Positions 54-63,543 are shown, counted from the first letter of the stretch. The stretch is DNA of 64,000 nt from Hymenobacter radiodurans (GCF_004355185.1 NZ_CP037922.1:248001-312000), one strand, 5' to 3'. The notes: generated by a model not told the origin, from the sequence alone. Translations and numbers: made by a program.

Positions 54-116
54 TAGTTGGTATGGATGTACTGATTATTTATGTGTGAATTTGCCCCCCA
101 GCGACGGTGGCAATCA

Positions 117-1769
117 TTACCCAATTTTGCGGGCAGTGTTAATGACGTTCACGCCGTTGAAGCGCGTGGTGGCGCTACCGTGGCTCACGGCTGACACCTG
201 CGAAGGCTGGCCTTTACCATCGAAGAACGACCCGAACAAACGGTAATCAGACTCGTCGCAGATGGCAGCGCACGAGTTCCAGAATTCCAGCGTGTTGGTC
301 TGATAAGCTACGTCCTCTAGCATGCCGTCAATCTTACCCTTGTTGATGGCATAGAACACGGTGCCGCCAAACTGGGAGTTGTAGCGCTGCTGATCGATGG
401 AGAAGGAACCACGGCCGGCGATATAAATGCCTTTGTCGACGTTCTTAATCATCTCATCTACCGATAGCTTCGCTTTGCCAGGCTGCAAGCTCACGTTGGG
501 CATGCGCTGGAATTGAACGGAACTCCAGGAGTCGGCATAGCAGCAGCCGTCCGACTCATTCTGACCCACCATCGCGGCCTGGTCGCGAATCTTCTGGTAA
601 TCAACCAGTACTCCATCCTTAATGATATCCCACTTTTTGGTCTTCACACCTTCATCATCGTAGCCAACTGCACCCAAAGAGCCAGGTTGCAGCTTGTCGG
701 CCACGATATTCACCAGCTTGGAGCCGTAAGGCTGCTTTTTGGCGCGCCACTCCAGGGTAGCAAAGCTGGTACCGGCGTAGTTGGCTTCGTAGCCGAGCAC
801 GCGGTCCAGTTCCGTGGGGTGACCCACGCTCTCGTGAATGGTCAGGCCCAAATGGTTCGGGTCGAGCACCAAGTCATATTTGCCTGGCACCACCGATTTA
901 GCCGTGATTTTCTCCTTGGCTTGCTTAGCGGCTAAGGCAGCATCTTCCAGAATGTCGTAGCTGTCTTTGTAACCAACAAGACCGGTGCCGGCCGGACCAG
1001 CAATTTTGCCGGCGGCCTTCGGCGTCATGTATTCGTAGCCCATGCCCATGGGCGCACTCAGAGCCTGCCGCGTCCGGAACTTACCGGAAGCGCGGTCGAT
1101 GGCCGTTACGTCGAAGGTTGGCCAGATGCGGTGCACATCTTGATCAATATAAGAGCCGTCGGTGCTGGCAAAGTACTTCTGCTCGTTTATTTGGAAGAGC
1201 GACGAGTTGACAAAGTTGGCGCCATTATCAAGAGCCTTTGCGTTGGCGGCGAGCAGGAGTTCCACCTTCTGGGCGATCGGAACTTCGAACGCATTCTGCT
1301 GAATAGGGGTCTTCCAGCTGACCTCGCCATGACCTTTGACGGGCGCCAGTTTCACCTGCTCTTTCTGCACTTTCGAGTTGGCCTTGGCAATCTGGACCGC
1401 TAGCTGGGCGGCTTTGGCTAGGCCAGCTTCCGTCACCGTATTGGTAGCCGCAAAGCCCCACGTGCCATTGGCGAGTACCCGCACGCCGGCGCCAAAACTC
1501 TCGCCGCTTTGAATATTTTGCACCTGCTTTTCGCGGGTGAAAATGCTCTGGTTTAAGTACCGGCCAATGCGTACATCAGCATAAGAGGCACCGGCCGACT
1601 TAGCGGCATTGAGCGCCGCATCGGCTAAACGCTTGTTCACTGCGGCATCCATAACTGACTCAAGCAACCGCTCTGGGGTAACCAGAGTGCCACCGAAACC
1701 GGGGAAGTTGGGCAGGAACACAGCCCCCGCCGCCAGGGCCGAGAGTCCTACAAAATCACGTCTTTTCAA
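117..1769 (-). CDS. tldD: TldD-type metalloprotease, Tat-signal
   Basis: A 550-residue TldD/PmbA family protein. The zinc motif HESVGH (HExxxH) lies at about residues 311-316, which marks the catalytic TldD-type subunit rather than the TldE/PmbA partner. The start is a TTG followed at once by KRRDFVG and a hydrophobic stretch, a twin-arginine-like signal, so export or membrane association is likely (inference); the E. coli enzyme is cytoplasmic. TldD/E proteases trim peptides such as microcin precursors and the CcdA antitoxin; the substrate here is unknown. The next gene downstream (ATG at 53) starts a second family member. The upstream 270 bp holds a REP-like inverted repeat. Confidence 0.85.
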   Translation of the reverse strand: MKRRDFVGLSALAAGAVFLPNFPGFGGTLVTPERLLESVMDAAVNKRLADAALNAAKSAGASYADVRIGRYLNQSIFTREKQVQNIQSGESFGAGVRVLANGTWGFAATNTVTEAGLAKAAQLAVQIAKANSKVQKEQVKLAPVKGHGEVSWKTPIQQNAFEVPIAQKVELLLAANAKALDNGANFVNSSLFQINEQKYFASTDGSYIDQDVHRIWPTFDVTAIDRASGKFRTRQALSAPMGMGYEYMTPKAAGKIAGPAGTGLVGYKDSYDILEDAALAAKQAKEKITAKSVVPGKYDLVLDPNHLGLTIHESVGHPTELDRVLGYEANYAGTSFATLEWRAKKQPYGSKLVNIVADKLQPGSLGAVGYDDEGVKTKKWDIIKDGVLVDYQKIRDQAAMVGQNESDGCCYADSWSSVQFQRMPNVSLQPGKAKLSVDEMIKNVDKGIYIAGRGSFSIDQQRYNSQFGGTVFYAINKGKIDGMLEDVAYQTNTLEFWNSCAAICDESDYRLFGSFFDGKGQPSQVSAVSHGSATTRFNGVNVINTARKIG

Positions 1770-1940
1770 GAGGGTAAGGTTTTGGGAAGATGAGTGAAGA
1801 TTTAAGTTTAGAGAGAAATCGGGAGAAACTCAATTTTAAGGACAAAGAATGCCCCCCAAGGCTGCATTGAACAGGATTATATACATTGTTGAATCGATAC
1901 AAATAGTCCGCATCGTTGCGCTCTTTTATCGTTTGTCCTC

Positions 1941-2036: not shown

Positions 2037-3068
2037 TTACTCGATCAGCTTCAGCAAATCAGCAGCAATTCCTGGCCAAGGTTGATTCAAGTCCAGCGTC
2101 ACGACGCGTACCGGGTGGCCGCCGAGCGTGTAGCGCAGGTCTATTTCGCGGGTGGCGGCAGGGTAGAGCAGAATGCCTTCCAAGTGCTGGCCGGGGGGCT
2201 TTTTTTGGTTCTGCAAGTAAGCGTACAGCTGATACAGGTGCGGCGAAATGAGGCGTTGCCGGTCGTAGCGCGGCCGCAGGGCGGCGCGGTAGTATTTGGT
2301 GTCGAGAATGATTTTGCGGTCGGGGGCCTCTAGCGTTGTGTCGGTAATCATGGCGGGCAGCATGCTCAAATCTTCGGGCTCCTCGGCGGCAGCTTGCCAG
2401 CTTATTGTCTCCGATAGCACCCGAAAGCGGCGCTGCTCTAGGCGGTAAAAGTTGCGTACAAAAGCCTCAAAAAGCTGGGCCATCAACCGCTCATCGCGCC
2501 GAAAATCCATGAAGCGAGTGCGGCCATCGGCGGCTGGTTCGGGAAGGGCACTGCGGTGCAGTAATTCGCACACATTAAGCAGCAGTGCCTCATGACCAAC
2601 GGGGCGGGTGCGACGCACGGCCCGCAGCGCATGACTGCTAAGCGGCGTGGGGGGCAAATCAGCAGGAAAAAGACGCATGACAGCACGCAGCTCATGCCGC
2701 AATGATGCCGATACCTGCCGTGCCCGACTTACTTGGGCCAGCGCCCCAAGTACGACCCGTAGAAAAGGCGTATCCGGCCCCAACTCATCGTAAGCACACA
2801 CTGCCCGGCCCCGCCGCAGCAGGTCGCGCGATAGGGAGGCCTCTAGCAACACCCGACCCCGGAGTTCGCCCAACTCTTCCTCGCGCTCTGCATAGGCCTG
2901 CCGCAGCCTCTGCCGCAACAGCCGACGCGTACCCATGAGCAGCACACGGCCCAGCAACTCCAGCGGCCGGTGAAAAGACGTCGCTTCCGACGTCAGCCAC
3001 TGCTCCTGCTCGGGTAAGCGGTTCCACGCGTAGCAAAGCAGATAGTAGAGGTTCTGAATCGGAATCAT
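2037..3068 (-). CDS. mcrC: McrC-family restriction endonuclease subunit
   Basis: A 343-residue McrBC-family C subunit, the nuclease partner of the McrB GTPase in modification-dependent restriction. The N-terminus MIPIQNLYYLLCYAW is characteristic of the family. The C-terminal half carries a PD-(D/E)xK-like core: TDTTLE followed by IILDTKYY, with the DTK at about residue 275. The ATG lies 9 bp after the McrB stop, the usual mcrB-mcrC operon order. It reads without interruption, unlike its partner. Function is by family; methyl specificity cannot be read from the sequence. Confidence 0.85.
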   Translation of the reverse strand: MIPIQNLYYLLCYAWNRLPEQEQWLTSEATSFHRPLELLGRVLLMGTRRLLRQRLRQAYAEREEELGELRGRVLLEASLSRDLLRRGRAVCAYDELGPDTPFLRVVLGALAQVSRARQVSASLRHELRAVMRLFPADLPPTPLSSHALRAVRRTRPVGHEALLLNVCELLHRSALPEPAADGRTRFMDFRRDERLMAQLFEAFVRNFYRLEQRRFRVLSETISWQAAAEEPEDLSMLPAMITDTTLEAPDRKIILDTKYYRAALRPRYDRQRLISPHLYQLYAYLQNQKKPPGQHLEGILLYPAATREIDLRYTLGGHPVRVVTLDLNQPWPGIAADLLKLIE

Positions 3069-6540: not shown

Positions 6541-6942
6541 ATGCAAACCTTTCCTGAGCTAACCCGCGCCGAGGAGCAAGTGATGCAGGTGCTATGGCAG
6601 CGCGGCCCTTCTTTCGTGAAGGAAGTAGTAGCCGAAATGCCTGCCCCGCAGCCCGCCTACAACACTGTTTCCACTATCATTCGCATTCTGGAGCAGAAAG
6701 GCTTTGTGGGCCACGAAGCCTTCGGTCGGACGCACCGCTACCAAGCGCTAGTAGCGCAGGATGACTACCGCCGCTTCTCGTTGCGCAAGCTGTTGGGGGG
6801 CTATTTTGGGAATTCATTTCCGCAGTTGGTGTCCTTTTTTGCGAAGGAAGAAAACCTCGATGCCGCGCAGCTCGATGAGCTGCTTCGCCACGCCGCCCAA
6901 CCTCCAACCCACGACTCCGATGCTTCCAATCAGTCTGCTTAA
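6541..6942 (+). CDS. BlaI/MecI/CopY family transcriptional repressor
   Basis: A 133-residue winged-helix repressor. The opening LTRAEEQVMQVLWQRGPSFVKEVV and the recognition region AYNTVSTIIRILEQKGFV are typical of BlaI/MecI. The C-terminal part is the dimerisation and cleavage region. It overlaps the M56 peptidase start by 23 bp, the standard two-gene sensor unit in which the membrane peptidase inactivates the repressor. The 11-bp dyad just upstream is the probable operator. No beta-lactamase is adjacent, so the signal is probably another envelope stress. Confidence 0.9.
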   Translation: MQTFPELTRAEEQVMQVLWQRGPSFVKEVVAEMPAPQPAYNTVSTIIRILEQKGFVGHEAFGRTHRYQALVAQDDYRRFSLRKLLGGYFGNSFPQLVSFFAKEENLDAAQLDELLRHAAQPPTHDSDASNQSA

Positions 6943-8293
6943 ATGGATGGTGCTCAGTACGGTACTGCTGGGCGTGTGGTGGCTTTGCTACCACGTGGTA
7001 TTGTGTCGTGAGCGGAGCTTTGGCTACAATCGGGCATTTCTGGTGCTAGGGCCACTGCTAGCGGCGGGCTTGCCGCTACTCCCGCTGGATTGGCCAAGCA
7101 CTTGGGGGGCAAATTCGGGCATCCTCCTGCCGGGTATCACAACCGTGCTGCTTCCACCTGTCCAAGTGGGTGTGCCTACCAGCAATCCGGTGCTTCACTG
7201 GTCGCAGTGGCTGCTGGTGGGGTACGTAGGTGGGGCGCTGGCCACGCTGGCCCGGTTAAGCTTCGGGCTGACCAAGCTATGGCTCAGCACCCGCAATTTA
7301 CCTCGCGAAAAGCAGGCAGGCTACACACTGGTACGCACGCAAGGACTGCTGCCAACTAGCTCATTTGGCCGAGTCGTGTTTTGGGATGACAGCTTACCAC
7401 TCAACGATGCTGAAGCCCAACAGGTGCTGCACCACGAGCTAGCCCATGTGCAGCAAGGCCACACCTTCGACCGGCTCTTGCTGGAGGTGTTGCGCGCCGT
7501 ACTCTGGTTCAATCCATTCGTGCATCTGTGCGCTCGGGCTCTCACACTTACGCACGAGTACCTAGCCGATGCGGCCGCCCTGAGCACTACTACTGCCTTC
7601 TCAAATACTGCTTCTCATTCCTATACCCACCTACTGGCTCGGCAAGTAGCCACCCGCCTCGGTTTCTCCATTCCGCTTGCGCACTCCTTTTCTCATTCCC
7701 AAACCCTACGTCGCATTGCCATGATTCACCGAACTTCCCCTATCCGTCGCTGTAAACAATGGCTGGCCCTGCCGCTGGTTGCTTTGTTAATGTTTACCAT
7801 CGCCTGTGAGCGAAATACGGAGTCAGTAGCCCCTTCGCAAAATGCCGAGATTTCGCCCAATCCGAAGCGCATTGATATATCATCCTCGTCCGGCAAGCAA
7901 ACTCTCACATCTTCTTCATCTGATGAAGTTTATACCTATGTAGAAGAGATGCCTCTATTTCCTACTGGTAAAAATGAGGATATAACGCGAGCTATCTTAA
8001 GTAATCTCAAGTATCCAGCGGAGGCTGTTCGCAATCAAGTAAAGGGTAGAGTTTTCGTTGCTTTTACAGTAGGTAGTGACGGTCAGGTACGGGATGCAGC
8101 TATCACAAAAGGGCTAGGCTCAGGGTGCGACGAAGCAACTCTGAATGCCGTTCGCAAATTGCCGCGGTTTATCCCTGGTAAGCAAAATGGCAAGCCAGTA
8201 TCAGTTCGTTTTACAGTACCTATCGAATTTAAGCCGTACTCCGCTCCACTCAGTAATATATTTGGCGGGTTAACGGGTTTACGAGGTTGCTAA
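6920..8293 (+). CDS. BlaR1-type M56 metallopeptidase fused to TonB C-terminal domain
   Basis: A 457-residue protein starting MLPISLLKWMVLS, inside the end of the blaI frame. N-terminal membrane segments are followed by the M56 zinc motif HHELAHVQQGH (HExxH). A further membrane segment (WLALPLVALLMFTIACE) leads to a periplasmic tail ending in a TonB C-terminal domain (YPAEAVRNQVKGRVFVAFTV, then LPRFIPGKQNGKPV). This fusion is common in Bacteroidota, paired with BlaI. The longer upstream frame is only an open extension; the ATG at 6920 gives coupling to blaI. Probable role: signal-responsive cleavage of BlaI. Confidence 0.85.
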   Translation: MLPISLLKWMVLSTVLLGVWWLCYHVVLCRERSFGYNRAFLVLGPLLAAGLPLLPLDWPSTWGANSGILLPGITTVLLPPVQVGVPTSNPVLHWSQWLLVGYVGGALATLARLSFGLTKLWLSTRNLPREKQAGYTLVRTQGLLPTSSFGRVVFWDDSLPLNDAEAQQVLHHELAHVQQGHTFDRLLLEVLRAVLWFNPFVHLCARALTLTHEYLADAAALSTTTAFSNTASHSYTHLLARQVATRLGFSIPLAHSFSHSQTLRRIAMIHRTSPIRRCKQWLALPLVALLMFTIACERNTESVAPSQNAEISPNPKRIDISSSSGKQTLTSSSSDEVYTYVEEMPLFPTGKNEDITRAILSNLKYPAEAVRNQVKGRVFVAFTVGSDGQVRDAAITKGLGSGCDEATLNAVRKLPRFIPGKQNGKPVSVRFTVPIEFKPYSAPLSNIFGGLTGLRGC

Positions 8294-8448: not shown

Positions 8449-9471
8449 GTGTTGTTACCGTTTTCGCCGCGTCACGCCGTAGTGGCCGCCTCCTTAAGCC
8501 TCTTTTCTCTATCTGTATTGCCCGGCTGCGGCACCCGCACCGATGGAGAAGCCACTGCCGCCAAAGCTTCTGTTGAGGCTGCCAAGCCAGCGCCCATCGA
8601 TACGGTGGCCATCAAGATGGCGGCTATGCGTCGCGACTCGCTCAAGGCCGACTCTATTGTAAAAGCCAACGGCCAACTACCAGGGGCCATTTTGCCCGGT
8701 AAGCGTATTGTGGCTTTCTACGGCAACATTCGGGCGAAGGGCATGGGTATCTTGGGCCGGGAGCCCAAGGAGCAGATGTTCCGCAAGTTTGACAAAGTAC
8801 TGGCTGAGTGGCAAGCCGCCGACCCGAGCATCCCGGTGCAGGCTGCCATTCACAACGTGACTATCACGGCCCAGGGGGCACCCGGTAAGGACGGTAAATA
8901 CCGCCTTATGAACTCCAAAGCCACCATTGAAGAGGTTATTCGCTGGGGCAAGGAGCACAACTGCATTGTATTTCTGGACGTGCAAGTGGGCCTGAGCAAC
9001 CTTGAAAATGAGCTGCACAAGCTAGAGCCCTACCTGAAGGATCCTATCGTGCACATGGGCATTGATCCAGAGTTTGCCATGGAAACCAAAGGTGTGCGCC
9101 CCGGCAAAAAGATCGGCACGTTCGACGCCAAAGACGTGAACTACGCCGTGAAATTTCTGGCCCGCATCGTGAGCGAAAACAATTTGCCCCCCAAGGTGCT
9201 CACCGTGCACCGCTTTACTCAGGGCATGATTACGAACTACAAAAACATCAAGCTCGACCCCCGCGTGCAGATTGTGATGCATATGGATGGCTGGGGCGAC
9301 CCCATTCTGAAGAAGGATTCCTACAAAGCCTACATCCAGAAAGAGCCCGTGCAGTACACCGGCTTCAAGCTGTTTTACGAGTACGACAACCGTCCTGCTC
9401 CCCACCACATCATGACGCCGAGCGAAGTACTGGCCCTCACGCCCAAGCCCATGTACATTCAGTATCAGTAG
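8449..9471 (+). CDS. Conserved lipoprotein of unknown function, possible TIM-barrel
   Basis: 340 residues from a GTG start. The signal peptide has a lipobox-like LPGCG at about residues 24-28. The rest has spaced motifs such as RIVAFYGN, CIVFLDVQVG, VHMGIDPEFAM, LPPKVLTVHRFTQGM and QIVMHMDGWGD, which look like successive beta-strand ends of a TIM-barrel-like fold. I recall similar lipoproteins in actinobacteria; no activity is known to me. The acidic residues after strands (IDPE, MDGWGD) would be candidates for an active site. It is followed by a strong terminator. Confidence 0.6.
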   Translation: MLLPFSPRHAVVAASLSLFSLSVLPGCGTRTDGEATAAKASVEAAKPAPIDTVAIKMAAMRRDSLKADSIVKANGQLPGAILPGKRIVAFYGNIRAKGMGILGREPKEQMFRKFDKVLAEWQAADPSIPVQAAIHNVTITAQGAPGKDGKYRLMNSKATIEEVIRWGKEHNCIVFLDVQVGLSNLENELHKLEPYLKDPIVHMGIDPEFAMETKGVRPGKKIGTFDAKDVNYAVKFLARIVSENNLPPKVLTVHRFTQGMITNYKNIKLDPRVQIVMHMDGWGDPILKKDSYKAYIQKEPVQYTGFKLFYEYDNRPAPHHIMTPSEVLALTPKPMYIQYQ

Positions 9472-9491: not shown

Positions 9492-9529
9492 AAAAAAGCC
9501 CCCCAGAATAAGTCTGGGGGGCTTTTTTG
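9492..9529. terminator. Bidirectional terminator from inverted motif pair
   Basis: AAAAAAGCCCCCCAG, loop AATAAGT, CTGGGGGGCTTTTTT: a perfect stem made of two facing full-length copies of the dispersed motif. It lies between convergent genes ending at 9471 (+) and 9567 (-). Confidence 0.92.
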
Positions 9530-11146: not shown

Positions 11147-12256
11147 TTACTTGGTTTCCACCGTGGCCGTCACGCTCATGCCGGCACGCAGGGGATGCTG
11201 AGGATCAACTTTGTCGAGCACAATTTTGACCGGCACGCGCTGGGTTACTTTCACGAAGTTGCCGCTGGCGTTGTCGGGGGGCAAAAGGGCGAAGCGGGCA
11301 CCCGTCGCCGCCGAAAGTGACTGAATGTGGCCTTCAAATTCTTCGCTAGGGTACGCGTCAACCTCTACCGCCACCTTCTGGCCCTCGCGCATGTTTTCCA
11401 GCTGCGTTTCCTTGAAGTTGGCAATTACCCAGGTGTTGCCGCTGGCCACAAGTCCCATGATCTGCTGACCCGGTGACACCACCTGACCGGGCTGTGCGCT
11501 TTTCTTGCTTACAATTCCGTCGCCAGGTGCGGTGATGGTGGTGTAGCTCAGCTGTAGTTTGGCGTTGTCGAGGTCAGCTTGGCGCTGCTTTACTACGGCT
11601 TCGGCTACGGCCACTTGCTGCTGCGCGGCGGCTACCTGCTGGCGTGCTACCTGCACCTGGTCGGCGGCCGTGGCGCGCTGGGCGCTGGTAGCTTTCAAGT
11701 TGGCTTGCACCGCGTCGTACTCGCTTTGCGGAATGATGTCTTGCTGACGCAGGAAAGTGCTGCGCTGCAAGTCTTTTTGCAGCCGGGCGCGGTTGGCTTC
11801 GCTTACTCCAATCGTCGATTGGGCGGTGCGCACATTGGCCTGCGCCGTGCCTACTCCGGCGCGAGCCGCCACTACATTGGCCTGAGCCGCCGCCAGAGCC
11901 GCCTCCGCAGCGTTCACGCGCTGCTGGTAGTCGGCCTGATCGAGGGTTACGAGTATGTCACCCTTCTTTACGAGTTGATTGTCCTGCACTTTTACTTCGA
12001 GCACCGGGCCACCTACGCGGGGCAGAATGGGATACACATCACCTTCCACCTGAGCATCGTCGGTTTCCTCGTGCGTTTGCCCAAACTGGTAGCGCTGCCA
12101 GCCAAAATAGCACCCCACGAGGAGTAGCAGAGCCAGAATAACGAGAATAATAGGACGCTTTGAACGGCCTTCCGGTGCCTCAATTTCCGGTGTGTAAGCC
12201 GAATCTTGGTGAGGAGCAGAAGCTACAGCCGGCGCTTGTTGAACGGGGGTTGCCAT
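11147..12256 (-). CDS. HlyD/EmrA-family periplasmic adaptor
   Basis: 369 residues. A single N-terminal membrane anchor (residues about 33-52, PIILVILALLLLVGCYFGW) is followed by a biotinyl-lipoyl-like segment. A long alanine-rich coiled-coil hairpin then runs from about residue 105 to 225 (AEAALAAAQANVVAARAG and similar heptads), and the beta-barrel region follows. This links the EmrB-like pump to the TolC-like outer-membrane channel. It sits between uspA and emrB in the same direction. Confidence 0.9.
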   Translation of the reverse strand: MATPVQQAPAVASAPHQDSAYTPEIEAPEGRSKRPIILVILALLLLVGCYFGWQRYQFGQTHEETDDAQVEGDVYPILPRVGGPVLEVKVQDNQLVKKGDILVTLDQADYQQRVNAAEAALAAAQANVVAARAGVGTAQANVRTAQSTIGVSEANRARLQKDLQRSTFLRQQDIIPQSEYDAVQANLKATSAQRATAADQVQVARQQVAAAQQQVAVAEAVVKQRQADLDNAKLQLSYTTITAPGDGIVSKKSAQPGQVVSPGQQIMGLVASGNTWVIANFKETQLENMREGQKVAVEVDAYPSEEFEGHIQSLSAATGARFALLPPDNASGNFVKVTQRVPVKIVLDKVDPQHPLRAGMSVTATVETK

Positions 12257-12819: not shown

Positions 12820-14144
12820 TTACCAGATCTGCTCGCCGGTGGCGCGCTTCAATTGGTATTGGCCAAGTGTATAGTTATAAATAGCCTGTAAGCGGGCTAG
12901 CCGAGCTTGTGCCAGCGAGGTCTCCGCGTCGAGCACGTCGAGGTTGGAGCCTACGCCGTAGCGGTAGCGCGACTGCGCCCGCGTGAAGGCATCCGTGGCC
13001 TGATTAATCTGCTGTAAGGCGTTGTCGTGGCGCGCCGCGCTTGCCTGCATATTGTTCAAGGCCTGCTGCACATCGGCCCGAATTTGCTCCTGCGTATCCT
13101 GGGTGCGCGCCTGCGTACCCCGAATGGTAGCCAGGGCCTCTACCCGCTGGTTCTTATTCTTGTTGCCATCATAAATGGGCACGGAGAGCTGCACGACGCC
13201 CACCGAGTTCGGCCGAATCTGGTCGAGGTTGGGCTGGTAGCCGTTTTTGGCCCCCAACTGAGCCCCAACACCAAGTATTGGCTTGTTGCTGTGTTCAATA
13301 AACTTCAGATTCAGATTAGCGGTGTTTTCCGCGTCGCGCGCCAGCTTTACTTCCGGCCGGTTCTCACTCGCTTGTGCTAAGGCCGCATTTACGTCAACGG
13401 CCTGCGGCTGATAAGCAAAAGCGCCCCGCACGGGTACGTTCTCATATTCCGGCTTGTGCAGGAGGCGCGCCAGCTGCACCTGCTGGTTGCGGAGCTGGTT
13501 TTGCAGATCAATCTTAGTGTTCTGAGCCTGGGTAATGCGCACCTGTGTCGTAGTCACGTCGAAACGGGTGCTAACACCGCCTTCCACGCGCTTCTCCATT
13601 TCGCGCTGGTGCTGCTGCAAAGAAGCAATCTGCGCATCCTGCACCTTAATGCTTTCGCGCACAAACAGAATATTGTAGTACACCTGTGCCGCTGAGTAAG
13701 CCAAATCGCGACGAGTTAGGTTTACTTGGTCGGCGGCCGCTATCCGGCGGCTTTCAGCCAAGTTGTACGAGGCATTCTTCTTTCCGAAGTCGAGAATACC
13801 GTACTGCAGCGTGATGTGGGCGTCGTAATTATTGTTAGGAGCAAATTGAAACTCCGGCGAGTCTGGAGAAAGCTGAAGCTTCACCACCGGGTCGATACGA
13901 GTGTAGGTAGCGGTGCCTGTTATCTGGGGCAAAAAGCCCCCCGCGTCTGGGTTACGCGGCTAGCAGCGGCATTTACTTCCTCTTCCAGTGTAGTAATGGC
14001 TGGGTTAGCATCGAGCACCGCGCGAATTGTGCCATCCAAAGCCAGAGAATCAGAGATAGTGGGCGTTTGAGCGTGTACTGCCCCAGCCGTCATAGACAGC
14101 CCAAGAGTTAATAGCGGAGCAATAATAGTTAGTCGAGAAAACAT
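12820..14144 (-). pseudogene. TolC-family outer-membrane efflux protein, frameshifted at motif copy
   Basis: The first frame starts at ATG 14144 (MFSRLTIIAPLLTLGL, signal peptide) and ends in SRVTQTRGAFCPR. The second frame continues with PQITGTATYTRIDP to the stop at 12820. The break is at the motif copy around 13931-13942. One extra T in the five-T run gives TRGAFLPQITG; one extra G would give TRGGFLPQITG. Restored length is 441 residues, normal for TolC. Two outer-membrane efflux repeats with long helical segments are visible. First gene of the efflux operon. Confidence 0.8.
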
Positions 14145-46126: not shown

Positions 46127-46188
46127 GGATGTGTCGTCGTAAGGAAGTTGCGGGCAGGCGGGGGGCTTTTGGTAGCTCAGGCCACTGC

Positions 46189-47370: not shown

Positions 47371-48728
47371 ATGCCTCAACTCGACTCAGCAAAGCCGCCT
47401 ACTCTTCGCCGCGACTTAGGGCTGGTGCAAGCCACCGCCCTGAACATGATTGATATGGTGGGCATCGGGCCGTTTGTGGTGCTGCCGCTGGTCATGCACC
47501 TGATGGGGCCTTACTTTCTGCTAGCCTGGATGGTGGGCGCGGCTTTGGCGGTCGTCGATGGCATGGTGTGGGCCGAATTGGGCGCTGCCTACCCTGAGGC
47601 AGGCGGCAGCTACCGCTTTCTCAAGCTAGCCTATGGCGAAGCTAAGTGGGGCCGGCTGATGTCGTTTCTGTATGTGTGGCAAACCCTGGTGCAGGCGCCG
47701 CTGGTGGTGGCGTCGGGGGCCATTGGCTTTGCCCAATACTTTGGCTATCTGGTGCCGCTTACCGAGTGGTGGCAGCCTAAGCTGGTGAGTGGCGTAGTGG
47801 TGCTGCTGCTTATTGCGTTGCTCTATCGCCGCATCGATGATATTGGTCGCCTGGGGGTGCTGCTGTGGGTGGGCGTATTGTGTCTTATGGGTTGGCTGAT
47901 TTTTGGAGGCATCACGCACTCAACTCACGAAGTGGCCTGGCTGCCGGTGGGGGGCATTTCAGATGTGCCGGGGCTGCTGTTTTCGGTAGCTTTGGGGCAA
48001 GCCGCCGTCAAAACCATCTATAGCTACTTGGGCTACTACAATGTGTGCCACTTGGGGGGCGAAATTCGTAATCCGGAGCGCGTTATTCCGCGCAGTATCT
48101 TCCTTAGTATTCTTGGAATCGCGGCGTTGTACCTGCTGCTAAACTGGAGCGTAGGTACCGTCATTCCGTGGCAGGAGGCCCAGCACTCCGAGTTTATCGT
48201 GAGCACCTTCGTCGAGACAATTTATGGCAGCACGGCCGCCAAGCTGGCTACCGCATTGGTGCTGTGGGTGGCGTTTGCGTCGCTGTTTGCCGTGCTGCTG
48301 GGCTACTCACGCATCCCGTACGCCGCCGCCGCCGATGGTGAGTTTCTGCCGGTATTTGCCAAAGTGCATCCTACCAAGCAGTTTCCGCACGTTTCCTTGC
48401 TCATACTCGGGGCGTAGGCTTCGTGTTTAGCCTACTGTTTCGGCTGGGTGAGGTGATTACAGCCATTCTGGCCATGCGCATTCTAATTCAGTTTGTGGGG
48501 CAGGCAGTTGGCTTAGTGGTACTTCGCCGCCGACGCGGCACCACTGGTTTGCCCTTCCGAATGCCATTATATCCCCTGCCGGTTATCATAGCGGTAGCCG
48601 TGTGGCTGCTGATTTTCTGGAGCACTGGCCCCGCCTTTATGCTTTCGGGCCTGACGGTGATTGGGGCGGGTGTAGTCGTGTTTCTGCTCTGGAGTCGTAA
48701 GTTGGAAAGATGGCCTTTTGAAAAGTAA
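47371..48728 (+). pseudogene. APC-family amino acid permease, frameshift at G4 run
   Basis: Restored length 452 residues. The first frame has the APC start LGLVQATALNMIDMVGIGPF and about nine membrane segments. It stops at VSLLILGA. The break is at G4 run 48409-48412; one more G gives SLLILGGVGFVFSLLFRLGEV, joining the second frame that encodes the last segments (LPVIIAVAVWLLIFW). It would import amino acids or a related compound. The missing base is in a G run, like the other frameshifts here, though this one is not a clear motif copy. Confidence 0.8.
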
Positions 48729-49950: not shown

Positions 49951-50478
49951 TTAAAGATTAAAAAACTCCTGAAAGATTTCGGTCCAGGCGTGCGGGCCAC
50001 CCATCCCCAAGATCAGGAAATAATAGCCCAGCAACACAATCAGCGCCCCAATGCCCAAGCCCAGCCAGCCGCCCAGCACTAAACCTACTACTACCCCGCC
50101 TACTACCAGCAGCCCACCCAGCGCAAGGTTTAAGAGTTTTCGGTCAGCTACAGTGTGGTTAATTAATGCAGCCGAAGGAGCCTTCTTGAATTGCACAGCC
50201 GGTAGCCCCGTTTGCGCCAGACTTTTGGGCTTAAGCGAGCTAGGTGTTACCTGTTTATTCTGGCTTGAGGGAGAAGCAGCCACAACGTCCAGCGCATGAG
50301 ATGCGCGGGTTTTGCTGACCGCAGACGTCGCCACGGAAGTACTGTCTGCTAGTACGCTGGTGTACGCTAAGGGCTTAGTTTGGGGCGGGTGAAAGGTGAA
50401 GGCTGCTTGCTGGCCTCGGCAACCGACAACCGTTACCAACAAAAAAGCCCCCCAGAGGCGCCAACGTATTAAACTCAT
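49951..50478 (-). CDS. Hypothetical lipoprotein with C-terminal membrane segments
   Basis: 175 residues. The lipobox is VVGC after a short hydrophobic stretch (WGAFLLVTVVGC). A polar, Ser/Thr-rich middle follows, then a glycine-rich membrane stretch LNLALGGLLVVGGVVVGLVLGGWLGLG. I do not recognise a family. A motif copy at 50447 encodes WGAF in the signal peptide. Confidence 0.65.
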   Translation of the reverse strand: MSLIRWRLWGAFLLVTVVGCRGQQAAFTFHPPQTKPLAYTSVLADSTSVATSAVSKTRASHALDVVAASPSSQNKQVTPSSLKPKSLAQTGLPAVQFKKAPSAALINHTVADRKLLNLALGGLLVVGGVVVGLVLGGWLGLGIGALIVLLGYYFLILGMGGPHAWTEIFQEFFNL

Positions 50479-51792: not shown

Positions 51793-51909
51793 AAACTAGA
51801 GCCTGAGTGGGGATAAAGCCGGAAGAATTTCCTACTTCGAAAGTACGCAAAAACGCTGGGAAGGGTGTTGGGGGGCTTTTTGGCCAAGCTGCGCGAGAAT
51901 AACAGGTAG

Positions 51910-52550: not shown

Positions 52551-52655
52551 AAGGGAGAGAAATATGATAACTGAAGGCTAGAAGCGCATAAATGCAGTAG
52601 TTGAAGCAATTATATAGTATTTAATTTATATAAATATTAAATAAAGCCCCCCGCA

Positions 52656-54143
52656 TTAATAATAGTGGAAATCGGGGTGGGCCTGAGGCAGCAGCGCTTT
52701 ATCAACGACGATGCTTTTGACATCAAAGTATAGGGCCGTTTCAGTATTAATATAGTGGCCCGGCTCGGTGGTTAGCTCCCATTCCGTAATAAGCACTCGG
52801 TAGGGCCTGATACCTAAAAGCGGCTTTACCACAACGTGCTCCACACCTTTCGACCATGCTCCGCGCAGCTGGGCTTCGCGGGCCAGAAGCTGTTGGTCGT
52901 AGGACGGTGCGCTGAAAAGCAGCTCTTGCCAGGCCCGGCGCGGTATGCCTATCCAACTGAAAACACCAATATATAGTACCGGCCCCCAGCGTAATAGCCA
53001 AGTGGGTAGCTGCCACCGAATAGGGCGGGCGTGGTAGGTTAAACCAGCCCAGATACTCAACAGCCCAGCCGGGAAGAGAAACAACAGCAGGCCATTGATG
53101 GCGCGGTCGGGGGGCATTTGCTTCATCACGCCAATAAACAGCAGCATACTCAGCGCGTAGCTTATCAGCAGAAAAAAAGCCCCCCAGTACCAGGGAAGCC
53201 GGATAGTAGTGCCCAGCCAGCCCCGGCGCTGCCAATAAAAAGCCACGAGAAGCCCCAGCACCGTCGGCAACAGTAGCTTAAAGGCCAGGCCACGGCGCAC
53301 CAGCAGCCGAAACATAGCATCGGGTGTGCCGGGTATTGCTCCTAGCACTTGCTGCATCAGATTGGCACCGTTCGCCTTCTGCGCATACCCTTCAAACTGC
53401 ATGCGGACATAGTTGCCGGGTGCTATTACCGTAATTACGGCCACTACCAGTGTCAGCAGTAGCAATGCACCCCACCAGCGCAGTTGCGACCATTGGGCGC
53501 GGTACCAGCTGATGCCTAGCACAAGCGCCAAGCTTAGCAGCAGGTGCAGCAGCGTCATTTCATTGGCGGCCGCGGATATTACAGCACAGCCAACCGCAAG
53601 TGCTCGCCAACCAAGCCGACTCTTAACCTGAGCAGCCTGTCGGGCGCGTTCGGAAGCAATGAACACGAGCAGCAAGGTAAGGCCTGCCAGATGGTACACC
53701 ACGGAGCCCGTAAACCAATAGATGGCCGAATACGGGTCAGGAATCATGTGCAGGTAAAATATCAGAAAAATTCCCGCTGCCACGGCGGCCTGCAAGCGCG
53801 GCAGCTGCCGCTGGCTAAGGGTGCGCAAACCCAAATAAATAGTCCCCAGCGTAGCGAGCAGGGTAAGGGCCGGAGTCCAGCGAAATCCATCGTACCAGCC
53901 ATAAACCAGCGGATTGGCCGCCGTTACCAACAGAGAAGACGAAAAGCGCCCCGTCCAGCGCAGATACAGCTCTATCTGCTGAGCCCAAAGGCCGGTGGTG
54001 CGCACATTGGCGGCATTATAATAATCATCCATGAAGGGATGATTATAGTAGCTCAGGAGCAGAAAGGGTGTCACCGCTGCCACCGTTACTGCCACCAGAA
54101 TTAGGTAAGGTAAACGGGAGGTGAGCCGAGTAAAAAGGGCCAT
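52656..54143 (-). CDS. DUF6056-like multi-pass membrane protein
   Basis: 495 residues from ATG 54143, with ten or more membrane segments. The opening includes YYNHPFMDDYYNAAN and LRWTGRFSS, a pattern I associate with DUF6056 proteins of Bacteroidota; the conserved DD after the first helix resembles GT-C type glycosyltransferases, so lipid-linked sugar transfer is possible (inference). Two motif copies (53109, 53179) lie in loops. Confidence 0.65.
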   Translation of the reverse strand: MALFTRLTSRLPYLILVAVTVAAVTPFLLLSYYNHPFMDDYYNAANVRTTGLWAQQIELYLRWTGRFSSSLLVTAANPLVYGWYDGFRWTPALTLLATLGTIYLGLRTLSQRQLPRLQAAVAAGIFLIFYLHMIPDPYSAIYWFTGSVVYHLAGLTLLLVFIASERARQAAQVKSRLGWRALAVGCAVISAAANEMTLLHLLLSLALVLGISWYRAQWSQLRWWGALLLLTLVVAVITVIAPGNYVRMQFEGYAQKANGANLMQQVLGAIPGTPDAMFRLLVRRGLAFKLLLPTVLGLLVAFYWQRRGWLGTTIRLPWYWGAFFLLISYALSMLLFIGVMKQMPPDRAINGLLLFLFPAGLLSIWAGLTYHARPIRWQLPTWLLRWGPVLYIGVFSWIGIPRRAWQELLFSAPSYDQQLLAREAQLRGAWSKGVEHVVVKPLLGIRPYRVLITEWELTTEPGHYINTETALYFDVKSIVVDKALLPQAHPDFHYY

Positions 54144-54270: not shown

Positions 54271-54453
54271 ATGCCCGCAACTCCGCAACCGCTCCATCCC
54301 GGCGACTTTTACTTCACGCCTGAGGGCTACATGGTGTTCACCGAGCAATACCACCGGCGGCGGGGCTATTGCTGCAAAAGCGGCTGTCGACACTGCCCAT
54401 GGAGCTTTGGCCGCGAGAAAAAAAAGCCCCCCAGCGGCGCTACGGGCGGCTAA
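54271..54453 (+). CDS. DUF5522 small cysteine-rich protein
   Basis: 60 residues with the family core DFYFTPEGYMVFTEQYHRRRG followed by YCCKSGCRHCPWSFG. The CC-x3-C-x2-C pattern suggests a metal or Fe-S site. Function unknown; it is widespread in Bacteroidota. The C-terminal tail KKKPPSGATGG is encoded by a G6 motif copy (54426), so the motif appears to have lengthened or replaced the end of the protein. Confidence 0.85.
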   Translation: MPATPQPLHPGDFYFTPEGYMVFTEQYHRRRGYCCKSGCRHCPWSFGREKKKPPSGATGG

Positions 54454-54885: not shown

Positions 54886-56544
54886 ATGCCCCTATCCTTG
54901 CTGAAAAAAGCCCCCCGGCTGGTTCGTGTTGCTTGCGTAGCGACTCTGCTGGCGAGTTTTGTACCAGAGGTTAGCGCCCAGCGCGCCGCTGGCCCCGACC
55001 GCCCCGCCGATTTTATGGACCCCGCCTTTCACCGGCAACGGAGAGAGCTGCTGCGACAAAAGCTGCCAGCTCGCTCCGTTGCCGTTTTATTTGCGTCTCC
55101 CGTCCGCAACAGGGCCAACGACGTGGACTTTAAGTACCACCAGGACCCGGACCTTTTCTACCTCACTGGCTACGAGGAGCCGGATGCCGTGCTAGTTCTT
55201 TTCAAGGAGCCACAGACGGTGGGAGGGCAAAGTGGCGTAACGGAAGCGTTATATGTGCAGCCTCGCAACCCTAGGGCCGAACAGTGGACAGGGCGCCGCC
55301 TCGGGACGGAGGGTGCCAAGCAGCAGCTCAAACTGCAATATGTAGCCGACAACAAAGAATTTGCCGCTGCCAAACTGCCTTGGAGCAGCTTCGAGCAAGT
55401 TCTTTTCTTAGATCAGCCCCAGGATGCCCGCGATGATGCCAGCAACCCCGGCGATGTGTACAGCCTCATCCAAACCTTCCGCCAGGGGGCAAACTTTCCC
55501 GCCGACTACAATCCGAGTCGCAATGAGGCGTATGCAATGATTCGCAGGTACGCTGGTACGCCAGGTGCCGCCAACTTAGCTCCCTATCTGACTAACTTAA
55601 CGCAAGAGCAGCCTCAACTGGGCTCCGACCGCTACCTGCAAGCCTATTTGAAAGCCAGCACCGACGACGCCCGCAAGCAAGCCGTTGCGGCCTTGCCCAC
55701 GTCGCGCTTCGATGGGTCGGCTTTGTCGACTTTGTTGGATGAATTGCGGGAGATTAAGACTCCTGAAGAGATAAAGCACTTGCGGCAAGCCATTCGTATC
55801 TCGGCGGTTGGCCAGCAAGAGGTTATGAAGGCCATGAAGCCGAATATGACCGAGATGGAAGTGCAGGGCCTGCACGAGTTTGTATACCGGAAGTATGGGG
55901 CCGAATTTGAAGGCTATCCCAGCATTGTAGGCGCCGGCAACAATGCTTGTGTACTCCACTACACCGTCAACGATAAACCCCGTCTCGGCAACGACTTGGT
56001 ACTGATGGACTGCGGCGCCGAATACCACGGCTACACCGCTGACGTAACCCGTACCATTCCTGCCACGGGTAAGTTTACCACGGAGCAGCGCCAGATTTAC
56101 GAGTTGGTGCTAGCTGCCCAGCAAGCCGGCTTCGAGCAGTGCAAGCCCGGCAGCGCTTTTCGAGCACCAGACGAAGCAGCCCGGAAGGTGGTCACGGAAG
56201 GATTGCTTAAACTGGGCATCATTAAAGACGCCAAAGAAGCTCGACAATACTTCCCACACGGCACCTCGCACTACCTCGGCCTTGATGTGCACGACCGTGG
56301 TACTTACGGGCCACTGCGCGCAGGCAATGTTATTACTGTCGAGCCAGGAATTTACATTCCCGAGAACAGTCCCTGCGATAAGAAGTGGTGGAATATCGGG
56401 GTGCGTATTGAAGATGACGTGCTGGTAACGGATAAAGGCTGGGAAAACCTATCCAAGGAGGCTCCGCGCACCGTGGCCGAAATTGAAGCACTTATGGCTA
56501 AATCGAGCGTCCTAGATGACTTTAAGCTTCCGGAGCTGAAGTAG
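54886..56544 (+). CDS. pepP: Secreted Xaa-Pro aminopeptidase (M24B)
   Basis: 552 residues from ATG 54886 (MPLSLLKKAPRLVRVACVATLLASF, signal peptide). The N-terminal aminopeptidase P domain has VLFASPVRNRANDVDFKYHQD and FYLTGYEEPDAVLVL. The M24 core shows DCGAEYHGYTADVTRTI (two Asp ligands), HGTSHYLGLDVHD (His), VEPGIYIP and IRIEDDVLV (Glu ligands). It removes N-terminal residues before proline, here probably in the periplasm. A G6 motif copy (54910) is in the signal peptide. Confidence 0.92.
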   Translation: MPLSLLKKAPRLVRVACVATLLASFVPEVSAQRAAGPDRPADFMDPAFHRQRRELLRQKLPARSVAVLFASPVRNRANDVDFKYHQDPDLFYLTGYEEPDAVLVLFKEPQTVGGQSGVTEALYVQPRNPRAEQWTGRRLGTEGAKQQLKLQYVADNKEFAAAKLPWSSFEQVLFLDQPQDARDDASNPGDVYSLIQTFRQGANFPADYNPSRNEAYAMIRRYAGTPGAANLAPYLTNLTQEQPQLGSDRYLQAYLKASTDDARKQAVAALPTSRFDGSALSTLLDELREIKTPEEIKHLRQAIRISAVGQQEVMKAMKPNMTEMEVQGLHEFVYRKYGAEFEGYPSIVGAGNNACVLHYTVNDKPRLGNDLVLMDCGAEYHGYTADVTRTIPATGKFTTEQRQIYELVLAAQQAGFEQCKPGSAFRAPDEAARKVVTEGLLKLGIIKDAKEARQYFPHGTSHYLGLDVHDRGTYGPLRAGNVITVEPGIYIPENSPCDKKWWNIGVRIEDDVLVTDKGWENLSKEAPRTVAEIEALMAKSSVLDDFKLPELK

Positions 56545-58197: not shown

Positions 58198-58243
58198 AGA
58201 AAAAGCCCCCAGTGCTGCTCGTGCGGTGCTGGGGGGCTTTTTG
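58198..58243 (+). terminator. Terminator after ftsY, uneven motif pair
   Basis: AAAAAGCCCCCAG (five C) faces CTGGGGGGCTTTTT (six G) across a short loop. One G is unpaired, as expected if one C were lost from the left arm. Confidence 0.88.
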
Positions 58244-61320: not shown

Positions 61321-62898
61321 ATGCACGTGACCACCCTCCCGTACGCCGCTACCGGTGCTTTTTCCGCTTTAGTTACCGATTACTTAGCCCAGCAAGCAGC
61401 GCTGAAGCCTTTCTATCACCGCTTCCCCACCTTGGAGGCCTTTGGTGGGCAAATTGAGGAGAAACAAGCCAGCTATTCTGCTGAAAGTCGGGAGCGGCTG
61501 GTGGCTGGTCTGCGGGAGCAATATAAAGAGGTGAATTTGCCCCCCAGCGTAGCGGCTAACCTTGAACTGCTGGCGCAGCCTACCACCTTCACGGTTACCA
61601 CAGGGCACCAGCTAAACCTGTTCACGGGGCCTCTGTACTTCATTTATAAGATTATAACTACCGTTAAGCTGAGCCAGCAGTTGAAGGCGAAGTATCCGCA
61701 GTACGACTTTGTGCCGGTGTACTGGATGGCTACCGAAGACCACGATTTTGCCGAAATCAACCACTTTCAGCTCTTCGGTAAGCGCTACGAGTGGCAGGCT
61801 GAGAATGTAGGTGGTCCTGTTGGTCGGATGACGTTGGACGGGTTGGAGGAGAATGTGCTCAGCCAGTTGTCGGCGGATGTACCAGCCGCTTTTATAGAAG
61901 CATACCGCAAATCATCGACCCTAGCTGAGGCCACGCGTCTGCTTGTAACGGAGCTGTTTGGTGAAATGGGCTTGGTTTGTCTGGATGCCGATATGGCCGC
62001 GTTGAAGCAGGCGTTGGTGCCCGTGCTGAAACAGGAAATCAGTGCCCAGGCTTCCTTTAAAGCGGTGCAAACCACCAATGAGCAGCTTACGGCTGCCAAT
62101 TATAAGCCCCAGGTGTATGCCCGCCCGGTCAACCTGTTTTTTCTGACTGACCAAGGCAAGCGCGAGCGGATAGAACCCGAAGACGACTCTTTTGTGGTGC
62201 GTAATACGGACCTGCGCTACAGCACGGAGGAATTACTGGAGCTAGTCGGTAAACAGCCCGAATGCTTAAGCCCCAATGTGGTGTTGCGCCCGCTGTATCA
62301 GGAGCTGCTGCTGCCCAATTTGTGCTACATCGGAGGTGGCGCGGAAGTAGCCTACTGGTTTCAGCTCAAGCAGGTATTTGCCGATAACAAAGTGCCTTTC
62401 CCAATACTGTTGCTGCGCAATTCGGGCCTATATGTGGGTAAGGCCAGTGCGGGCAAATTACGCAAGCTAGGCCTGACAGCTAACGACTTATTTCAGCCGC
62501 TGCCGGAGTTGAAAAAACAAGTCGGCAGTGCAATAGGCCAGGAGGAAGTGAGCTTGAAAGCGCAGCAAGAAGCGCTGGGGGGCATTTTTAAGGAGATAAC
62601 CGACCTCGCGCAGCGCCTCGACCCTACGCTGGTTAAAACCGTAGCGGCCGAAGCTCAAAAAGCGGCCGCTGGCATCGGCAACTTGGAAAAGCGCCTGAGC
62701 AAAGCTGCCGAAAACAAACACGAAATTGTTTTTACCCAGCTTACGGCTTTGAAAGACAAGCTTTTCCCCAATGGCGACCTACAGGAGCGGGTGGAGAATG
62801 TGTTGAGCATTATCATCAACAACCCTGAGTTTCTACAGCAGCTTTTCGACGCCTTTGATCCGCTGGCGCTGGAGTTTACGGTGCTGGAGGAAGAGTAG
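61321..62898 (+). CDS. bshC: Bacillithiol biosynthesis cysteine-adding enzyme BshC
   Basis: 525 residues from ATG 61321 (MHVTTLPYAATGAFSALVTDYL). Diagnostic stretches are TTGHQLNLFTGPLYFIYKI, VYWMATEDHDFAEINHF and PNVVLRPLYQE. It adds cysteine to glucosamine-malate in bacillithiol synthesis. Motif copies at 61539 and 62577 encode NLPPS and LGGIF in frame. Confidence 0.93.
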   Translation: MHVTTLPYAATGAFSALVTDYLAQQAALKPFYHRFPTLEAFGGQIEEKQASYSAESRERLVAGLREQYKEVNLPPSVAANLELLAQPTTFTVTTGHQLNLFTGPLYFIYKIITTVKLSQQLKAKYPQYDFVPVYWMATEDHDFAEINHFQLFGKRYEWQAENVGGPVGRMTLDGLEENVLSQLSADVPAAFIEAYRKSSTLAEATRLLVTELFGEMGLVCLDADMAALKQALVPVLKQEISAQASFKAVQTTNEQLTAANYKPQVYARPVNLFFLTDQGKRERIEPEDDSFVVRNTDLRYSTEELLELVGKQPECLSPNVVLRPLYQELLLPNLCYIGGGAEVAYWFQLKQVFADNKVPFPILLLRNSGLYVGKASAGKLRKLGLTANDLFQPLPELKKQVGSAIGQEEVSLKAQQEALGGIFKEITDLAQRLDPTLVKTVAAEAQKAAAGIGNLEKRLSKAAENKHEIVFTQLTALKDKLFPNGDLQERVENVLSIIINNPEFLQQLFDAFDPLALEFTVLEEE

Positions 62899-62967
62899 AC
62901 TTTCGCTTATCTACGAAGCGTGAGTTTGAGTGCTCAGGTCGCTTGGGGGCTTTTTGCTGATTCTTTT

Positions 62968-63543
62968 ATGCTGAAAGCAGACATACGTCGCACCTTTTTA
63001 ACTCGCCGCCGCACGCTAACGGAAGCAGAAGTAGAGCGGCGCAGTGCGCTGCTTAGCCAGCAGTTATTCGAGAGCTTTCCCATTGCCGACTGGCGTTGGC
63101 TGCATGTGTTTCTACCTATCGCGAAGCAGCACGAGCCGGATACCTGGCTAATTATTCACCGCATCTGGGCGGAGTTTCCGCTAGTGCAGTTGGCCGTACC
63201 CATAATGCAGGCCGATGGGCATACGTTGCGCCACTATCACCTTACCCCTGACACGCAGCTGGTTACGAATCGTTGGGGAATACCGGAGCCGGTTGGAGCG
63301 GAAGAAAAGCCCCCCACGGTCTTTGATGCTGTGCTGGTACCGCTGCTGGCGTGCGACTTGAGCGGCCATCGGGTAGGATATGGCAAGGGTTTCTACGACC
63401 GTTTTCTGGCGCAATGTCGGCCGGAGGCGCAGCGGATAGGCTTGTCACTGGAGCCACCCATTACCCAAGTTGTGGATGTAAACACTACTGATCAGCCGCT
63501 GACGGCTTGTATCACGCCCGAGCAAATATTCTGGTTTCGCTAA
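62968..63543 (+). CDS. 5-formyltetrahydrofolate cyclo-ligase
   Basis: 191 residues from ATG 62968 (MLKADIRRTFLTRRRTL). The nucleotide and folate site is shown by DAVLVPLLACDLSGHRVGYG followed by KGFYDRFL. It converts 5-formyl-THF to 5,10-methenyl-THF. A five-G motif copy (62945) lies just before the start. Its 3' end overlaps the next gene's end by 4 bp on the opposite strand. Confidence 0.92.
   Translation: MLKADIRRTFLTRRRTLTEAEVERRSALLSQQLFESFPIADWRWLHVFLPIAKQHEPDTWLIIHRIWAEFPLVQLAVPIMQADGHTLRHYHLTPDTQLVTNRWGIPEPVGAEEKPPTVFDAVLVPLLACDLSGHRVGYGKGFYDRFLAQCRPEAQRIGLSLEPPITQVVDVNTTDQPLTACITPEQIFWFR

Follow-up and report, generated by a model that had tools for sequence, protein, structure and literature searches.

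Genome-wide self tags have been described for the Pasteurellaceae and the Neisseriaceae, and iterated words, in the form of highly iterated palindromes (HIPs), for the cyanobacteria. According to the excerpts of the papers cited here and below, the uptake signal sequence (USS) of the Pasteurellaceae combines an inner core with AT-tracts that are rigid and have a narrow groove, 23% of USS lying within 100 bp of another (PMC7811141); one orientation prevails in genes among the uptake sequences surveyed (PMC2346458); the DNA uptake sequence (DUS) of the Neisseriaceae occurs 1,543 to 3,770 times in four species, and its dialects share a three-base core (PMC3630211); and HIP variants occur only where HIP1 is low (PMC4390886). 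A screen in Riemerella anatipestifer returned ComEC, DprA, ComF, and RecA together with four proteins without homology to known machinery, which its authors read as a unique transformation machinery (PMC8459023). Riemerella columbina, a member of the Bacteroidota, prefers its own DNA in competition, and the k-mers listed at the top for Riemerella are A/T-rich (PMC7965970, Table 3); no comparable word is known there. Here we describe an iterated motif, built on the core GGGGGGC (G6C), which was found in a 64,000-nt stretch (the window) of Hymenobacter radiodurans and recurs throughout the genome.

The window lies on contig C2 (4,728,901 bp) of a 4.92-Mb genome whose second contig, C1, has 190,065 bp. 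Besides the core, we counted a 9-mer, CTGGGGGGC, and an extended motif, YGGGGGGCWWW (YG6CWWW), against shuffles and order-3 Markov simulations in the window and against the reversed pattern genome-wide. A sequence-only reading of the window had put the cores at about 57 and the full 9-mers at about 30, with one expected by chance, and the counts bore this out: there were 57 cores (31 on the plus and 26 on the minus strand; expected, 16.8; standard deviation, 4.0) and 30 9-mers (15 on each strand; expected, 1.15; maximum over 100 shuffles, 5). Of the extended motif there were 51 copies, whereas 60 simulations gave 0.88 on average and never more than 3. The near equality of strands held, with the exact split of 30/26 slightly off, and the GC content, given as about 57%, was measured at 55.1%. 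The whole genome contained 1,438 9-mers (728 and 710 by strand), against 2 (1 and 1) for the control, and 3,015 extended motifs (1,488 and 1,527), against 51 (27 and 24). The iterated motif is real and genome-wide, having survived both tests that the earlier reading had named against itself, namely, excess over a control and occurrence outside the window.

We then determined the anatomy of the motif in 424 kb of the chromosome. Of 342 G6 runs, 299 read G6CWWW, and runs of seven numbered only 9 and those of eight or more 0; in the window, WWW directly followed 55 of the 57 cores. The 9-mer was present 137 times (expected, 5.4). The position weights gave (g)(C)(T/C)GGGGGGC-WWWW-T-T, with conservation limited to about 15 bp. 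One-mismatch forms at core positions 3 to 9 stood at 0.3 to 2 times expectation, the highest being those with C or T midway along the run, and replacement of the first C by T or G, or of T by C, gave 5 to 10 times expectation. GGGGGGC-WWWW is asymmetric, not palindromic.

The tract following the core is constrained in a different manner. A TpA step was found in 40 of 676 W4 tracts after G6C, compared with 2,920 of 5,927 after any [CG]GC. The claim that the core is followed by T6, AAATTT, or ATTTT was thus right as to an A/T tract and too narrow as to its form, which is generally AnTm with few TpA steps. Where the core was intact in a relative, changes in the tract were A<->T in 6/6, 9/10, and 7/10 cases, compared with 49/289, 57/397, and 37/259 in the flanks; summed over the three relatives, which are not independent, this amounts to 22/26 against 143/945 at flank A/T positions. 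Since the differences were mostly A<->T, it is the A/T character that is kept and not the letters. AnTm without TpA is the mark of a stiff, narrow-groove A-tract, and to judge from its base order the tract beside the core would have a narrow minor groove.

The distribution along the genome was determined in 1.004 Mb of sampled chromosome, which contained 681 extended motifs, 8 to 21 per 20 kb, with a variance/mean ratio of 0.76. With the origin set at base 1 and the terminus at 2.36 Mb, both deduced from GC skew, the leading/lagging split was 348/333 for the extended motif (P = 0.59) and 157/159 for the 9-mer. The skew is positive at 4.5 to 4.73 Mb, and the origin is perhaps nearer 4.4 Mb; moving the three regions at 4.5 to 4.73 Mb to the other arm gave 336/345 and 155/161, respectively. 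The motif had been said to occur in coding and noncoding DNA with no link to gene function. Both kinds of occurrence were found (213 of 290 sites lay inside genes predicted by heuristic open reading frame [ORF] calls), whereas indifference to coding was not: the density was 1.44/kb in intergenic and 0.575/kb in coding DNA for the 290 sites and 1.26 versus 0.57/kb in a second sample, i.e., 2.2- to 2.5-fold higher between genes. Genic copies fell in several frames, the commonest shared peptides occurring twice each among the 290 sites, and the gaps between neighbors looked random (coefficient of variation [CV], 0.95). Ten neighboring pairs lay within 60 bp, 6 of them arranged as GCCCCCC..GGGGGGC, and three formed tight, T-tailed, terminator-like hairpins (window positions 9498/9516 and 30246/30264; locus L093, 4342/4357). 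On C1, 15 9-mers were found among the matches listed, against 57 expected from the chromosome (P = 3e-11), which is about 4-fold sparser and agrees with the 8 counted in 60 kb sampled.

The motif was restricted to a small clade, a confinement that the sequence-only reading, in pointing to other Hymenobacter and Cytophagales genomes, had not foreseen. The extended motif occurred 2,516 to 3,521 times in 4 of 120 genomes of the genus and at most 60 times in the other 116. Among 200 genomes of the family, 4 had at least 1,436 9-mers and the rest at most 170, and a draw of 291 genomes from the order included two of the motif genomes, which alone stood out, the next having 191 (control, 63). The named motif genomes are those of H. 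qilianensis and Hymenobacter sp. BT188, which form a clade with H. radiodurans at 100/100 support in a tree of HMG-CoA reductase; the fourth motif genome, G041, is outside that tree, its HMG-CoA reductase being 96% identical. We aligned these three relatives (flank identity, 77 to 83%) and, as the outgroup, YC55, the nearest named motif-free relative. The core was intact at 30/36 sites in G041, 20/25 in BT188, and 28/48 in H. qilianensis, compared with 348/1,048, 244/603, and 489/1,215 control all-GC 7-mers, respectively, and at 0/11 sites in YC55, compared with 91/683. A longer alignment without controls gave 33/39, 58/83, and 72/112 intact sites in G041, BT188, and H. qilianensis, respectively. 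Because the aligned YC55 sites differed by several substitutions each, mostly without indels, the motifs were most likely written in place, and, judging from the 0/11 YC55 sites and the 116 motif-poor genomes, they probably arose through substitutions along the branch leading to the clade. A G7C site at window position 50622, outside the motif definition, was common to H. radiodurans and YC55. Gene-tree blocks switched along the locus (19/9/1 of 29 one-kb blocks at 242 to 281 kb of the chromosome), with H. radiodurans and BT188 together in 6/8 blocks at 242 to 249 kb and BT188 and H. qilianensis together in 18/21 blocks, one of them a tie, from 250 kb on; in this one clade, examined without a control clade, the switching suggests internal recombination.

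The ratio of G5 to G6 runs was 0.45 in the H. radiodurans sample and 0.68 in that of H. qilianensis, compared with 0.18 for BT188 and 0.21 for G041, and 19 of 31 aligned H. radiodurans G5 sites read G6 in BT188. Homopolymers were likely undercalled in the H. radiodurans and H. qilianensis assemblies, so the motif counts for H. radiodurans are probably low. Many GGGGGC sites (window positions 4293 and 4718 and other G5CWWW sites; loci L109 to L112) were GGGGGGC in BT188 and G041, and some such undercalls would mimic frameshifts in the two assemblies. A G5 variant as a second functional form was considered and dropped, being indistinguishable from undercalls in these assemblies.

Other members of the genus carry other iterated words, as seen from k-mers at named loci and in 100-kb samples (loci L049, L071, L079, L015, and L050 for the last three): GGGGGTAGG in UV11 and H. 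ginkgonis; MCCTAGGK in Solirubrum, H. setariae, and H. polaris; TGGCCTAG in H. fodinae; GGCTAGCC in CA2-7; and GGGGCCCC in H. nivis. YC55 had no comparable word in 100 kb. These words occurred at 0.6 to 1.8/kb, with an intergenic/genic ratio of 1.2 to 2.8 and a variance/mean ratio of up to 4.7, some being more clustered than the H. radiodurans motif. The excess was uneven among words; GGGGCCCC in the GC-rich H. nivis sample stood at 89 versus 17.2, only about 5 times the Markov expectation. GGCTAGCC, GGGGCCCC, and TGGCCTAG are known from loci and samples, and the remaining two words were counted genome-wide. GGGGGTAGG occurred 2,419 to 3,530 times in 5 of 120 genomes (G053, G090, G174, G186, and G197; loci L041, L043, and L155 to L164) and 294 to 1,259 times in nine more, where the tag is perhaps being gained or lost. 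A weak T preference was seen about 15 bases upstream of the GGGGGTAGG core. CTAG is usually rare in bacteria, and MCCTAGGK had 2,974 to 4,213 sites in 6 of 120 genomes (G059, G080, G138, G179, G181, and G185; loci L032, L067, L068, L070, and L130 to L144) and at most 182 elsewhere. It lay on separate tree branches, with three changes; these can be explained by independent gains or by a single gain and two losses, and labels shuffled on the tree did as well in 153 of 500 trials. No genome was rich in two of the three words counted genome-wide (the H. radiodurans motif, GGGGGTAGG, and MCCTAGGK).

Two further repeats were seen in the course of these counts. A longer dispersed repeat with AGATGCTTC / GTCATGCTGA, present at L028, L029, L030, L036, L045, L065, and L130 to L134, looks like an intergenic element of the repetitive extragenic palindromic (REP) or enterobacterial repetitive intergenic consensus (ERIC) type. 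CCATTGTGG occurred 21 times in 21.6 kb of Raineya orbicola (L077), about 219-fold over composition, and could be an array or an iterated word.

The motif resembles the USS of Haemophilus influenzae and other Pasteurellaceae in its invariant core with an AT-tract, its thousands of copies on both strands, and its presence in genes at a lower density than between them. Unlike in USS, the Hymenobacter core is GGGGGGC with a single, directly abutting A-tract, there is neither an excess of close pairs nor a favored genic orientation, and the type IV pilus (T4P)-type ATPase was not found in 18 genomes. With DUS it shares clade-specific words, a like copy number (3,015), and a change of word from lineage to lineage within one group; the Hymenobacter words, however, look unrelated in sequence, some are palindromic, and the T4P-type ATPase was not found (ComP was not searched). 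HIP1 and the other cyanobacterial HIPs are likewise GC-rich and highly iterated through genes, with variants where the others are low, but the H. radiodurans motif is asymmetric with an A-tract; the palindromic words MCCTAGGK, GGCTAGCC, and GGGGCCCC are closer to HIPs than it is. As a frequent, short, G-rich word it is like Chi, from which it differs in its lack of replication polarity and in the double-strand-shape constraint beside the core. ComEC is common to Hymenobacter and Riemerella, and, unlike in Riemerella, DUF5689 had no match in the motif clade.

No other known kind of element fits this set of features as well as uptake sequences do, and an uptake-like element is our best reading; we favor it because of the double-stranded core with its A-tract, the absence of polarity, the other words in sister lineages, and the depletion on C1. 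The motif may be a tag by which self DNA is recognized, in the manner of a DNA uptake sequence, a proposal that we put forward tentatively and hold at just short of an even chance. Double-stranded GGGGGGC and the adjoining A-tract (AnTm) would be read by a sequence-specific binder, probably one at the cell surface, tagged DNA of kin would be preferentially taken up and recombined in, and biased exchange (molecular drive) would rewrite the sequence in place, giving tags about every 1.5 kb on both strands. We infer that a protein reads the motif, that this reader is at the surface, and that uptake is the function. Since the ATPase was over the cut-off in none of 18 genomes, close pairs show no excess, and a role in uptake is a proposal only, we do not class the motif as a DUS or USS. 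In a bolder version, the genus would recognize its own DNA by sequence and without a pilus, at uptake or at some equivalent step of mate choice, and the whole word would be exchanged for another between lineages, six or more words being in use (the G6C-A-tract motif, GGGGGTAGG, MCCTAGGK, TGGCCTAG, GGCTAGCC, and GGGGCCCC); this we regard as, on balance, doubtful.

Several results weigh against an uptake-like tag. PF00437, the ATPase of T4P and type II secretion systems (T2SS), was over the cut-off in 0/18 Hymenobacter genomes (other pilus genes were not searched); there was one weak match below the cut-off, in G210, and the controls matched in 14/14 cases, 13 of them over the cut-off. An uptake machine would thus be of another kind. 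That this ATPase would go undetected had not been anticipated by the sequence-only reading. Flavobacterium johnsoniae may encode a T4P-type system, to go by an excerpt. ComEC, HHH_3 proteins, and NamZ_N (PF07075, called DUF1343 in PMC8459023) were present in 18/18 genomes, motif bearing or not, and so say nothing about which genomes have the motif. DUF5689, which occurs in one of the four nonhomologous proteins that R. anatipestifer needs for transformation, had no match in the four motif genomes, and the neighbors of comEC were carotenoid and regulatory genes, with no uptake cluster among the 10 ORFs scanned. The motif had no favored orientation in genes (sense/antisense, 109/104 and 255/226 in two samples), gaps below 100 bp made up 5.5% against 7.3% expected, so that close pairs were not in excess, and some of the other words are palindromic and more HIP-like. 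For strain-specific chromosomal segments the result was mixed: those missing from BT188 were not depleted, with 16 motifs in 23.2 kb versus 84 in 110.2 kb (P = 0.40), and only those missing from H. qilianensis were, with 2 in 9.9 kb versus 117 in 157.7 kb (P = 0.02). Among the literature matches listed, there was no report of competence in Hymenobacter and no description of the G6C motif in the genus.

The sequence-only reading knew of no account of such a motif in this group and had offered four candidates, a DNA uptake sequence, a Chi-like site, HIP1-type iteration, and a nucleoid-protein site, of which the uptake-like one is that favored here, Chi is disfavored, and the other two are neither favored nor dismissed. 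A chromosome-architecture or nucleoid site, at which an abundant cytoplasmic protein binds the core and A-tract every 1.5 kb to organize or segregate the chromosome, the sites being under selection, would account for the unclustered spread (variance/mean ratio, 0.76 per 20 kb; gap CV, 0.95), the double-strand shape signature, the conservation, the use of both strands, and the sparseness on the 190-kb contig. We consider it unlikely: the sharp on/off pattern among species of one genus, together with the different words, would call for repeated replacement of the binder, and polarity of the kind known for FtsK-orienting polar sequences (KOPS) and architecture-imparting sequences (AIMS) is absent. 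To our knowledge, known nucleoid proteins need no exact 7-base core inside genes. A HIP-like word that belongs with a DNA methyltransferase or a repair enzyme, after the example of cyanobacterial HIP1, and is swapped along with the enzyme is decidedly unlikely, even though the genus has the GC-rich palindromes MCCTAGGK, GGCTAGCC, and GGGGCCCC at 0.6 to 1.2/kb and GGCTAGC at 1.8/kb. The absence of genomes rich in two of the three words parallels the confinement of HIP variants to genomes low in HIP1, and MCCTAGGK occurs in distant lineages, as if a specificity gene had moved, but its three tree changes may be one gain and two losses and were equaled by shuffled labels (153/500). The H. radiodurans motif is, moreover, nonpalindromic and requires an A/T tract, in which the bases may come in either order, whereas methylase sites are usually exact short words.

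A Chi-like recombination hot spot for RecBCD or AddAB would explain why the motif is G-rich, frequent, and also found within genes, but co-orientation with replication is absent (348/333 and 157/159), the ease with which A and T interchange in the tract speaks for a constraint on double-strand shape and not on single-strand bases, and a change of word from species to species would presumably be unusual; we regard this as highly improbable, and Chi and KOPS were ruled out as candidates by the lack of polarity. The slightest chance is given to a by-product, whether of intrinsic terminators, of bias in codons or peptides, of homopolymers prone to slippage, or of a dispersed mobile element, a reading that the controls themselves contradict. 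G-runs can slip, and the three tight inverted, T-tailed pairs are terminator-like; nevertheless, predicted genes contain 213/290 sites, which run both ways (109/104) and fall in several frames, with the commonest shared peptide found twice, conservation does not extend beyond about 15 bp, the Markov and reversed controls are near zero, and G7 runs number 9 and G8 or longer runs 0, compared with 342 G6 runs. Terminators alone were rejected because most sites are genic and few are paired, only the three tight pairs fitting, and peptide bias was rejected on account of the several frames, the two orientations, and the commonest peptides occurring twice each.

The motif sites of the window are collected in the table below. 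A 7-kb segment at 9530 to 16608, without alignment in H. qilianensis and BT188, had 0 of the 30 full 9-mers and 4 G6C cores. Rfam and tRNA scans of the window gave no matches.

Table. Motif sites in the 64,000-nt window, located by pattern search and, where indicated, also present in the alignment with relatives
Form	Position	Strand	Basis	Remark
CTGGGGGGC	93..101	-	search + alignment	intact in H. qilianensis, 1 mismatch in BT188
YG6CWWW	1851..1857	-	search + alignment	
YG6CWWW	2193..2199	+	search + alignment	
YG6CWWW	2649..2655	+	search + alignment	
YG6CWWW	6795..6801	+	search + alignment	
YG6CWWW	7104..7110	+	search + alignment	not common to aligned relatives
YG6CWWW	9186..9192	-	search + alignment	
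CTGGGGGGC	9498..9506	-	search	inverted pair with 9514-9522 (left arm), forming a T6-tailed hairpin
CTGGGGGGC	9514..9522	+	search	right arm of inverted pair with 9498-9506
YG6CWWW	11276..11282	+	search	
YG6CWWW	13936..13942	-	search	
YG6CWWW	16854..16860	+	search + alignment	
YG6CWWW	18302..18308	-	search + alignment	
CTGGGGGGC	18476..18484	-	search + alignment	
CTGGGGGGC	18509..18517	-	search + alignment	
CTGGGGGGC	19077..19085	+	search + alignment	
CTGGGGGGC	21555..21563	-	search + alignment	
CTGGGGGGC	22057..22065	+	search + alignment	followed by GTTTTT, hence not YG6CWWW
CTGGGGGGC	22121..22129	+	search + alignment	
CTGGGGGGC	23008..23016	+	search + alignment	
CTGGGGGGC	23384..23392	+	search + alignment	
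CTGGGGGGC	23736..23744	-	search + alignment	
CTGGGGGGC	27162..27170	+	search + alignment	
CTGGGGGGC	28038..28046	+	search + alignment	
CTGGGGGGC	28100..28108	+	search + alignment	intact in H. qilianensis, BT188, and G041
YG6CWWW	30246..30252	-	search	inverted pair with 30262-30270 (left arm), forming a T6-tailed hairpin
CTGGGGGGC	30262..30270	+	search	right arm of inverted pair with 30246-30252
YG6CWWW	31252..31258	+	search + alignment	
CTGGGGGGC	34323..34331	-	search + alignment	
YG6CWWW	34619..34625	-	search + alignment	YC55 different at several aligned bases
YG6CWWW	34928..34934	-	search + alignment	YC55 different at several aligned bases
CTGGGGGGC	37278..37286	+	search + alignment	substitutions in YC55
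CTGGGGGGC	37533..37541	-	search + alignment	
CTGGGGGGC	41082..41090	-	search + alignment	absent in aligned H. qilianensis and G041
CTGGGGGGC	42856..42864	-	search + alignment	
CTGGGGGGC	42995..43003	+	search + alignment	
YG6CWWW	43811..43817	+	search + alignment	
CTGGGGGGC	46097..46105	+	search + alignment	
YG6CWWW	46160..46166	+	search + alignment	
CTGGGGGGC	47254..47262	-	search + alignment	
YG6CWWW	47949..47955	+	search + alignment	
CTGGGGGGC	50447..50455	-	search + alignment	
YG6CWWW	51870..51876	+	search + alignment	
YG6CWWW	52646..52652	-	search + alignment	
YG6CWWW	53109..53115	+	search + alignment	
CTGGGGGGC	53179..53187	-	search + alignment	
CTGGGGGGC	54426..54434	-	search + alignment	
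YG6CWWW	54910..54916	-	search + alignment	
CTGGGGGGC	58229..58237	+	search	
CTGGGGGGC	61539..61547	-	search + alignment	
CTGGGGGGC	62575..62583	+	search + alignment	substitutions in YC55
YG6CWWW	63309..63315	-	search + alignment	

An uptake-like tag in Hymenobacter would be, so far as is known, the first of its group and points to an undiscovered reader protein in the Bacteroidota. A single genus here offers an on/off switch between species, several words, and a motif-free state that can be read in an alignable relative, so the origin of thousands of tags, be it by selection, drive, or repair bias, becomes directly testable by comparison. The motif could also yield a practical key for transforming Hymenobacter. 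If the pilus-independent system of swapped words is true, the genus would be a natural experiment in the birth, spread, and swap of genome-wide tags.

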